Made by a program: the position numbers and the translations under genes | Shown here: in pieces, positions 1 to 2,053 of the stretch | Numbering within the stretch: position 1 is the stretch's first letter | How the letters are laid out: each line of letters opens with the position of its first letter | Source of the DNA: Pelagibacterium sediminicola | Lineage (GTDB): Bacteria > Pseudomonadota > Alphaproteobacteria > Rhizobiales > Devosiaceae | Assembly (NCBI RefSeq): GCF_003390885.1 | Contig: NZ_QMEL01000015.1 | Span: 1 to 33,168, forward strand | Direction of reading: 5' to 3' | DNA length: 33,168 bases | Notes under the pieces: generated by a model | What the model was told of the DNA's origin: nothing | Database searches by the model: none | The model's input: the letters and a program-made list of their open reading frames with translations, nothing else

Positions 1-67
1 GACGGCGCCGGCCCGTATCCACGATCTCGAGCCGCTCGACACGGCTTCTATCTGTAAAGATATCCAT
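1..67 (-). CDS. tnpA: IS66-type transposase accessory protein TnpA, N-terminal fragment cut by the window edge
   Basis: Only 22 codons are visible. They begin at ATG (complement of 65-67), directly downstream of in-frame TGA TAG stops, so this is the only possible ATG start. The peptide begins MDIFTDRSRVERLEIVDTG and runs into an arginine cluster. This looks like the start of IS66-family TnpA proteins, small helix-turn-helix accessory proteins encoded first in the tnpA-tnpB-tnpC order. The call is recognition from memory of a short N-terminus. It is supported by the GTAAGC terminus found 60 bp upstream, which is where an IS66 end should be. No clear Shine-Dalgarno is visible. An unrelated short ORF is possible but less likely. 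Confidence 0.68.
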   Translation of the reverse strand, partial: MDIFTDRSRVERLEIVDTGRRR

Positions 68-127
68 ACCGACAGTCAGCTATCAGACCGATCGCGCAAG
101 CCAAGGCGGCTCTCAACGGAGGCTTAC
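1..127 (-). mobile_element. End of an IS66-family insertion sequence, inserted in a CRISPR repeat
   Basis: Read on the minus strand, sequence unrelated to the CRISPR repeat starts abruptly at 127 with GTAAGCCTCC, and a tnpA-like ORF starts 60 bp further in. IS66-family elements are known for terminal inverted repeats starting GTAA and for 8-bp target duplications. The junction falls between nucleotides 2 and 3 of the 36-bp CRISPR repeat, so the target duplication should be CCTAGCAG (128-135). The other IS end and the second duplication copy lie outside the window, so the element's length and completeness cannot be judged. Confidence 0.7.
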
Positions 128-689
128 CCTAGCAGTTCAGAAAACGCGGTCCAACGGCAACTCTGGCCCGCTGTGCGCGAAGGACTCAAGAAGCCTAGCA
201 GTTCAGAAAACGCGGTCCAACGGCAACCGGGGCAAGCCCTCGACCGGCAGTCGATTTAGCCTAGCAGTTCAGAAAACGCGGTCCAACGGCAACCATCGGC
301 GTAGTCGTCATCGCGGATGTCGAAGCCTAGCAGTTCAGAAAACGCGGTCCAACGGCAACTGACAGAACGATCAAGCTTTCCTCAAAGGCAGCCTAGCAGT
401 TCAGAAAACGCGGTCCAACGGCAACCGAGGCCACCCCATGAACCGCCTCCTTACCAGCCTAGCAGTTCAGAAAACGCGGTCCAACGGCAACCGAAAACGA
501 GCGCGAGCGATTCCTGACGCTAGCCTAGCAGTTCAGAAAACGCGGTCCAACGGCAACGGCTTGCCAATGGTGATGGTGCCGGGCGCGAGCCTAGCAGTTC
601 AGAAAACGCGGTCCAACGGCAACCGGGTAGTTGTTCCAATTCGACGCGCGCAAAATCTAGCAGTTGAAAGAACGTCGCCCAATAGCAAC
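128..689 (-). CRISPR. CRISPR array, type II (II-C-like) repeats: nine 36-bp repeats, eight 30-bp spacers
   Basis: Repeats start at 126 (first two bases replaced by the IS end, so 128), 192, 258, 324, 390, 456, 522, 588 and 654, an exact 66-bp period. Repeats 2-8 are identical. The last (654-689) differs at 10 of 36 positions. Spacers, all 30 bp and all different, are 162-191, 228-257, 294-323, 360-389, 426-455, 492-521, 558-587 and 624-653. On the minus strand the repeat begins GTTGCCGTTGGACC and ends AACTGCTAGGCT. A 36/30 layout with a repeat starting GTTG and ending in a -10-like hexamer fits type II-C, where crRNAs are spacer followed by the GTTG end; this sets the minus orientation. No cas gene is visible in the window. 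Type is inferred from the repeat alone. Confidence 0.95.
654..682 (-). promoter_or_regulatory. Promoter-like sequence inside the terminal CRISPR repeat (representative of all repeats)
   Basis: On the minus strand the intact repeats contain TTGGAC, 17 bp, then TAGGCT preceded by TGC (extended -10). In repeat 3 these are at 281-286 and 258-263. The degenerate terminal repeat keeps the arrangement as TTGGGC (677-682), 17 bp, TAGATT (654-659). Each promoter would start transcription in the adjacent spacer. Repeat-embedded promoters are established for the type II-C array of Neisseria meningitidis; applying that here is inference from spacing and hexamer match. Confidence 0.55.
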
Positions 690-699
690 CTGCCCTCCC

Positions 700-738
700 T
701 GGCTGCGGAGGCCCGTGCCCTTCGAGCCTCCGCAGCCA
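700..738. other. Strong stem-loop flanking the CRISPR array
   Basis: A perfect 13-bp inverted repeat (700-712 and 726-738, TGGCTGCGGAGGC and its complement) encloses a 13-nt loop. It sits 10 bp beyond the terminal repeat. No T-tract follows on either strand, so it is not a canonical intrinsic terminator. It could insulate the array from flanking transcription, be the 3' hairpin of a plus-strand RNA starting in the degenerate repeat, or be a chance dyad. Confidence 0.6.
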
Positions 739-834
739 TCCCATCTGAAATTTCCCGTTGCATGAAACTCTTTGTCTGGACAGCGCGTGGGTGTGTTGTC
801 AGTCTGCCGGTGAATCAGAATCGGGGGCGTTCAA

Positions 835-1584
835 TTGCATTCCATCCTTTCACTGCCTCCGGTGCAGCTTTTGCTGGCGATCGTGCTGTTCGTCGTTGTC
901 GGCACGGGCGTGGCCATGTTGCTGCTCTTTGGGCTGCGCCGTGCGTTCAGGACGTCCTCGATGGCGGTGCCGGTGGCGACCTTTATCAGTACGGTGGCGA
1001 CCGCCTGGGCGCTGGCGCTCGGATTCGCCGCGGCCGATGTCTGGACCTTGCGCGCGGATGCGGACAAAGCGGCGTTTGCCGAGCGGTCCTCGGTCATGCG
1101 CCTCGTCGGCATGGCGGATACGCAAGCGCTCGATATTCCCGAATTGCGCGAGGCAATTATCGACTATGTCGCTCTCGTCACCACGGACGAATGGGGTGCC
1201 GGTCTCAACAGCAGGCCCCATACGGGGGTGGATGATGCCCTTCAGGCCATAAGGCTGGCCATCATCGATCTTGCCTATGGCGAGGCGCCGGAGGCCCTCG
1301 TCGACAAGGCGGTGAACGATTTCGATGAATTACAGGATGCGCGCAACGCCCGGTTGGGAGTGGGCGAAAGCGTTGTCGACGAGGCAAAATGGTATCTGGT
1401 CGTCATTTTGACGGTCATGAGCATGACCACAATCGGAGCCTGCCATCTCGACCGCCCGGTGGCCGGCTTCAATGCGCTCTGGATTTACGGAATCGTGGTC
1501 GTCGCCAGCCTTTGGGTGCTGGGCATTCACATCAATCCCTATACGCACCTGGCGATCCCCTTCGAGGCGATCGATGCCGTTTAG
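835..1584 (+). CDS. DUF4239 (bestrophin-like) membrane protein
   Basis: A 249-residue protein with two N-terminal hydrophobic segments (about residues 8-34 and 43-68), a soluble central region of about 110 residues (70-180), and two C-terminal segments (about 186-205 and 212-232). This TM-TM-loop-TM-TM layout and length match DUF4239 proteins, a bestrophin-like family of unproven function, possibly ion-conducting. The start is TTG at 835 with a purine-rich GGGGGCG 6 bases upstream. The first in-frame ATG (960) would delete the first membrane segment, so TTG is preferred. It stands alone, facing away from the CRISPR array and followed by a long gap. The family call is by recognition of layout and sequence style; no catalytic motif supports it. 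Confidence 0.75.
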   Translation: MHSILSLPPVQLLLAIVLFVVVGTGVAMLLLFGLRRAFRTSSMAVPVATFISTVATAWALALGFAAADVWTLRADADKAAFAERSSVMRLVGMADTQALDIPELREAIIDYVALVTTDEWGAGLNSRPHTGVDDALQAIRLAIIDLAYGEAPEALVDKAVNDFDELQDARNARLGVGESVVDEAKWYLVVILTVMSMTTIGACHLDRPVAGFNALWIYGIVVVASLWVLGIHINPYTHLAIPFEAIDAV

Positions 1585-1921
1585 GCCCGTTCAGGATTTG
1601 ACGAAATCGAAGATCGGGAGGATAGCTTGTGTGCTGCGCCGGTCTCCGGGAGTCCGTCTCGGGGGGGGGGATGGAGATGGCGCGCATATCAGCGCCAAAA
1701 CCACCAATGTCGTTCGCGGCTTGTTCCCCGAAGCCAGAACGATCCGCCCTCAACCGCCGCGGCAGGCCGTTTCCATCAAAGCCCGGGATCAAACACCTAA
1801 CGCTGCAACCGGGCGGCCGGTATTAAGGTAAATGCCCCGAAACCCCGCCTAGATGTGAGCTTTCAGGATAAGCGGGCACCACCTATCCGGTTCGGAACGC
1901 GACAAATCAAAGACTTGGAGC

Positions 1922-1948
1922 TCCTGTTTTGATTCCGTCAAAACAGGA
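1922..1948. repeat. Perfect 11-bp inverted repeat with 5-nt loop
   Basis: TCCTGTTTTGA (1922-1932), loop TTCCG, then TCAAAACAGGA (1938-1948), followed by ATTGTTCTAG. The motif resembles short palindromic intergenic repeats I associate with Hyphomicrobiales genomes, but no second copy is visible here. No T-tract follows, so it is a poor terminator for the upstream membrane-protein gene. Confidence 0.6.
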
Positions 1949-1988
1949 ATTGTTCTAGCGTTGCGCTTCGGTGGTGGAGGTCTTATAG

Positions 1989-2016
1989 TTGACCAAGTCT
2001 ATAGACTTTTTGCAAT
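1989..2016 (+). promoter_or_regulatory. Putative rrf2 promoter with a 14-bp palindromic operator in its spacer
   Basis: TTGACC (1989-1994), 16 bp, then TGCAAT (2011-2016). Almost the whole spacer is the perfect palindrome AAGTCTATAGACTT (1995-2008). The Rrf2 start codon is 37 bp downstream of the -10 element. A dyad in this position suits a dimeric repressor, and Rrf2 proteins often regulate themselves, so autoregulation is a reasonable inference. Confidence 0.6.
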
Positions 2017-2053
2017 GGACCGTGTCCAACATGGCAAGGTGCCCCCTCATTCG

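Follow-up and report, generated by a model that had tools for sequence, protein, structure and literature searches.

The window, the whole stretch of 33,168 nucleotides analysed here, comprises contig C6 of the Pelagibacterium sediminicola assembly (46 contigs, 3.24 Mb) in its entirety and opens with the right end of an IS66-family element (positions 1–127, minus strand) that directly abuts a CRISPR array. On the minus strand the array contains an interrupted repeat (128–161) with 34 of its 36 bases kept, seven intact repeats starting at 192, 258, 324, 390, 456, 522 and 588 (192–623 together with the spacers between them) and a degenerate terminal repeat (654–689, 26/36), which represents the old end of the array. 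The eight 30-bp spacers (162–653, the first at 162–191 and the last at 624–653) belong to the far, older array part. A complete first repeat unit would start at 126 with AGCCTAGCAG; instead, AC is found at 126–127 and a perfect repeat from 128 on. Read on the minus strand from 127, the element begins with GTAAGCCTCCG, and its terminal inverted repeat GTAAGCCTCCGTTGAGAGCCGC (106–127, minus strand) aligns with that of the other end, GTAAGCATCCGCTGAGGGCCGC, at 19 of 22 bases. The 5′ part of tnpA occupies positions 1–67 on the minus strand, with the start codon at 67–65, 60 bp inside the element, and an arginine-rich N-terminus of the encoded protein. Since the IS66 end takes the place of the first two bases of the 36-bp repeat, the adjoining CCTAGCAG (128–135, plus strand) is the expected 8-bp target-site duplication, of which one copy is seen.

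Contig C28 represents a complete IS66-family element of 3153 bp (~3.15 kb) and harbors, all on the minus strand, tnpA (3093–2683; PF01527), tnpB (2686–2339; PF05717/NF033819) and the DDE-type tnpC (2250–616; PF03050/NF033517), in the order that defines the family, as well as one passenger gene (26–619) for a 197-residue protein of the PRiA4_ORF3 family (PF07929, 1.6e-51). TnpA reaches 80.4 bits with model NF047595 (IS66_ISRel24_TnpA, cut-off 74); TnpB and TnpC likewise pass curated NCBI models for IS66. Window positions 1–127 are identical to C28:3027–3153 and to the end of contig C43. C28 terminates there with ...GGCTTAC, and from the next base on the window and C43 diverge. The 127-bp overlaps between contigs look like the word length of the assembler.

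As the window holds just 127 bp of the supposed element, its start might be read as a normal leader or a mutated repeat with no element inserted. However, these 127 bp form the terminus of a complete IS66 element in C28 and adjoin an unrelated flank in C43, and such a sharply bounded common end is neither a mutated repeat nor a leader; we regard this explanation as practically ruled out. An IS66-family element is inserted in the CRISPR repeat at the window start. The sequence-only reading had claimed exactly this, together with the loss of the first two bases of repeat 1 at the minus-strand element end and a tnpA-like ORF with an arginine-rich N-terminus 60 bp further in, and each of these points is confirmed by the features described above. 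The tnpA-tnpB-tnpC genes and the second inverted terminal repeat that it proposed to look for are present as well.

Elements of the IS66 family carry inverted repeats beginning with GTAA and generate an 8-bp target duplication. Both ends of the present element read GTAAGC, and the duplication, likewise anticipated, is borne out at a second genomic copy, where AGAGCACG is found on the left flank in contig C2 (...AGAGCACG/GTAAGC) and again on the right flank in C43 (GCTTAC/AGAGCACG). C28 starts with a G ahead of GTAAGC and by the logic of overlap assembly its left neighbour would therefore also end in G, as CCTAGCAG does; this fits a duplication of CCTAGCAG but would occur by chance about once in four cases. 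A literature search of partial coverage on IS66 and target duplication gave nothing. The IS66 element on plasmid NZ_CP146276.1 of Pelagibacterium nitratireducens resembles the present one in its tnpA-tnpB-tnpC genes (90.4% DNA identity over 79% of the element). In contrast to the element described here, the match begins within the end of tnpC or beside it and does not cover the PRiA4_ORF3 passenger stretch, and no PRiA4_ORF3-type product is listed beside the plasmid element in the incomplete gene table of PLSDB.

The window array had been suspected to be part of a larger one, with further 36-bp repeats and cas9-cas1-cas2 to be sought elsewhere, and this proves correct: the end of contig C1 carries 22 identical copies of the 36-bp repeat beside a tracr anti-repeat, cas9, cas1 and cas2. 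An array fragment devoid of cas genes at a contig start is thereby explained, the cas genes being located elsewhere in the same genome. The three cas genes are consecutive ORFs that fit models TIGR01865, TIGR03639 and TIGR01573, respectively, cas9 encodes 1083 amino acids and the first C1 repeat lies 72 bp past cas2. Neither csn2 nor cas4 is present between these cas genes and the array. Judged by this cas9-cas1-cas2 arrangement lacking csn2 and cas4, the C1 locus is of type II-C layout, an assignment made from gene order; no subtype-specific II-C model matched. The anti-repeat comprises 20 exact repeat bases (C1:85840–85859, minus strand) upstream of cas9 and was called by its sequence match to the repeat. 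In the readable parts of the own genome, a search with the repeat returns 30 forward copies, located on C1 and C6 only.

By the usual orientation rule, a repeat of this kind starts with GTTG on its crRNA strand. On the minus strand of the window the repeat begins with GTTG and reads GTTGCCGTTGGACCGCGTTTTCTGAACTGCTAGGCT in full, so that crRNAs are most likely made from this strand, in line with the sequence-only reading. No target was found for the spacers of the C1 array among phages and plasmids, nor a match for those of the window array in a phage collection, and a comparison of the spacers of both arrays with stretches of the own genome returned a single 16-base match, taken as chance.

The C1 half is also broken inside a repeat and at the same CTAG: AGCCTAG is followed by the end of an IS630-family element, TCACCTGGAACTG. 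Five identical copies of this end exist (on C1, C8, C44 and twice on C23). The first 174 residues encoded by the C8 copy score 115.2 bits with NF033545 (cut-off 100), and the C8 element end is identical to C1 over the 127 bp available on C1. The left junction is C-TA/CTAG in all five identical copies; two right junctions, belonging to copies other than the CRISPR one, read GACTAG (TA-G). IS630 itself reportedly prefers the TA in CTAG (Tenzen and Ohtsubo, in 1991), and the present element resembles it in all five left junctions. Unlike in that precedent, the target here is a promoter-like motif of a CRISPR repeat. In general, members of the IS630 family target TA, which is duplicated on insertion, according to the available part of PMC2170065. 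As a side observation, other IS630 ends on C8 (L018 1300–1510) and C3 (L013 1–180) adjoin a sequence resembling by eye the end of an IS5-type transposase, with a diverged IS66 end 40 bp further on in the C3 case, so that elements appear nested in elements.

Two unrelated elements, IS66 and IS630, are thus found at the two broken array edges, both at the CTAG position of the repeat sequence. Taken alone this coincidence is not strong, because an 8-bp target covers CTAG in 5 of the 66 positions of a 66-bp repeat-spacer unit, assuming an element without target preference. These features would be accounted for by a single type II-C array of at least 22 + 8 spacers that was split by transposition. 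IS66 would have entered one repeat in its 3′ portion (crRNA strand), with CCTAGCAG as the expected 8-bp duplication, and IS630 would occupy the CTAG of a repeat located cas-side of the break, which may be the one hit by IS66. C1 and the window would then be joined through the elements, which would separate the 8 old spacers in the window from the 22 younger ones beside cas2. Because growth takes place at the cas2 side, the window half could gain no more spacers. As a whole, this explanation, comprising one II-C array, IS66 and IS630 insertions and the repeat promoters discussed below, is considered highly probable.

A variant of this explanation concerns the number of repeats hit. If IS66 and IS630 sit in different repeats, the intervening repeats and spacers either remain between them or were lost, as has been described for spacers between two IS6110 copies in the accessible text of PMC7708916. 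Against two separate repeats, the 30 forward copies in the readable parts of the own genome are confined to C1 and C6, and a twofold hit on a single repeat can account for the half-repeats AGCCTA/CCTAGCAG... We give two separate repeats a chance somewhat short of even; the insertion of both elements into the same repeat is the simpler reading, not a proven one.

Each half of the array ends in a multi-copy element, and recombination between copies might therefore have carried the window half to another chromosomal site, so that the halves are no longer neighbours. The architecture of the halves speaks against this, since the C1 half possesses a cas-side end and lacks a degenerate one, whereas the window half ends in the degenerate repeat (26/36) and lacks a cas side. 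Comparator loci were taken as the best 80 of at least 534 confirmed stretches of a Cas9 alignment scan, and 62 of them contain a total of 64 arrays. In a hand-picked subset of 32 arrays free of contig-end contact among these 62 loci, 19 have the more degenerate repeat at the far end (20/33 with the own array included), 13 show no difference between the ends, and in none is the cas end the worse one. Furthermore, the other IS66 copy is flanked by matching 8-bp sequences, and hence no exchange between these two copies is evident there.

Gene order in the nearest member of the genus (G006; 93% identity in murA, 90% in fadE) bears on the same question. In that genome the homologues of C1:29.5–31.0 kb and of the window from 2054 on keep their order and orientation and are separated by 100 bp, and the genes of C1:20.2–30.1 kb continue beyond those neighbours. 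Judging from this comparison, the gene order of the relative independently places C1 next to the window, as C1:20–31 kb and the window from ~2 kb on are colinear neighbours there. On the other hand, the murA-like gene of C1, 10.6 kb from the array, and the fadE-like gene of the window (both named by eye) are separated by 2.1–2.4 Mb along the contig in four of four relatives, or by 1.5–1.8 Mb the shorter way round if the contig is circular; these are the relatives with both genes on one chromosome-sized contig, the other eight having them on different contigs. The distance in these relatives favours separated halves and in any case implies that the region has been rearranged. On balance, contiguity of C1, array and window is likely, and a relocated window half is rated as quite improbable.

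The segment C1:31.0–92.2 kb together with window positions 1–2053, including the CRISPR locus, corresponds to a place between genes that are directly adjacent in the relative. Some 61 kb from C1, together with the elements and 2 kb of window sequence, thus seem to stand between two ancestral neighbours. The presence of hisD- and murA-like genes (names by eye) in the C1 segment speaks against a simple CRISPR island. At window positions 835–1584, between the array's old end and a conserved gene at 2053–2491, a bestrophin-like domain protein (PF14023) is encoded; just 100 bp are found at this place in the relative.

On the crRNA strand the CTAG is situated within a GCTA-NNN-Y motif. Fifty-six comparator repeats (51 of them distinct) were kept, after eight arrays had been dropped: four whose repeat call departs from the common 36-base register (L082, L111, L124 and L152), the scattered Bartonella blocks of L088 (two rows) and L089 (one row), and one inverted extra array at L086; none of the eight was marked as containing CTAG. 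Bases 31–32 are TA in 56/56 of the kept repeats, base 29 is G in 55/56 and base 30 is C in 53/56, while bases 33–35 are variable and base 36 is T in 40 and C in 16. The alphaproteobacterial –10 consensus is GCTANAWC, and by its conservation GCTA-NNN-Y looks like a –10 element embedded in the repeat. A strict E. coli sigma-70 promoter scan of window positions 1–900 found none; this either counts against the promoter idea or reflects a different consensus. In Neisseria meningitidis, every repeat of the type II-C array has been described to contain a promoter (Zhang 2013, cited in the available text of PMC5052741); in contrast to that system, the promoter is deduced here from conservation alone and its motif is GCTA-NNN-Y.

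If each repeat carries its own promoter with GCTA-NNN-Y as –10 element, transcripts would start a few bases past each GCTAGGCT and, as a consequence, both halves of the array would stay expressed. All eight window spacers keep whole repeats upstream, the outermost of which is degenerate. A spacer just past an element would have lost its –35 element and might be weakly transcribed or silent; silencing of the spacer beyond IS66 is plausible. On C1 the spacer beside IS630 keeps TAGGCT, with IS630 DNA in place of the –35 element. Transcription from the interrupted repeat, in turn, would run into tnpA from a possible fused promoter (126–154, minus strand) composed of TTGGAC (154–149), a 17-bp spacing and TAGGGT (131–126), the last two bases of which are contributed by the IS66 element. 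The locus offers a natural test of repeat-embedded promoters: transcription of both halves, with silence of the element-side spacers only, would mark each repeat as its own promoter.

The tetranucleotide CTAG is the second rarest of 256 in the own genome, with 53 copies in 14 stretches (280 kb) picked by position on 6 contigs. The window contains 5 copies outside the array, and the two array parts contain 33 within 2.0 kb. Rare in the genome and frequent in the array, CTAG thus renders the array a dense cluster of IS630-type targets. A more far-reaching idea holds that CTAG-bearing II-C arrays are insertion traps whose many CTAGs sit right on the promoter-like TA and draw IS630-type elements, that one repeat was hit twice and that the IS66 copy now expresses its transposition genes from the repeat promoter; this we consider unlikely. 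If the trap existed, certain CRISPR repeats would by their very sequence invite disruption by particular elements. As a general rule the trap is not supported, as 13 of the 56 comparator repeats carry CTAG and none was seen split. None of these 13 arrays has an internal gap above 85 bp. At the far ends of 12 of the 13, a non-systematic look by eye, which would miss a far part of fewer than three repeats, recognised no IS end; L103, L107, L138 and L156 reach a contig end or stop within 125 bp of one. The M. tuberculosis repeat has already been suggested to be insertion-prone in the case of IS6110 (PMC7820667, available text). Separately, several array blocks with the same repeat are scattered among other genes around or beyond the cas genes in two Bartonella genomes (L088 14691–22834 and L089 13382–18308), and by eye none of the ORFs in the long gaps of both loci was recognised as a transposase.

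The splitting of CRISPR repeats by insertion sequences has precedents. In the CRISPR (DR) locus of M. tuberculosis, IS6110 splits a direct repeat with a short duplication, up to three IS6110 copies occur, the repeat has been called a hot spot and pairs of copies lead to spacer loss, as far as the available portions of PMC7708916 and PMC7820667 describe it. As in the present locus, the repeat itself is split, the duplication being the expected one here. In contrast, the IS6110 case concerns one IS family, a 3-bp duplication and a type III-A system, whereas here a type II-C repeat has two unrelated families at its CTAG site. In Flavobacterium psychrophilum CN46 an IS256 element has been reported within the type II-C array, where both parts are transcribed and the transcription is attributed to repeat promoters (PMC10309648, accessible part). 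This array is likewise divided in two, but by one element instead of two. Insertion into cas genes has been surveyed in PMC10359306, as far as its text was available. The IS66/IS630 arrangement is not described in the accessible parts of PMC4022347, PMC5155288, PMC10309648 and PMC6563490, within a partial coverage of the literature. Since the splitting of a repeat by IS6110 and of an array by IS256 is already known, the array split by IS66 and IS630 is a new example of a known phenomenon, and a real and well-supported one. What it adds is a second, unrelated element that occupies the identical four-letter site, CTAG, in a repeat, probably within a putative repeat-embedded promoter.

A scan of a genome collection with the single Cas9 sequence gave no match. 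In a DNA search of 13 genomes of the genus the array was found in the own genome only, a second genome showing a single short match that lies away from the array. A Cas9 relative is present in 39 of 397 genomes of the order, the own genome included. None of the other 38 is labelled as belonging to the same family, and from this distribution the CRISPR locus was probably acquired horizontally.
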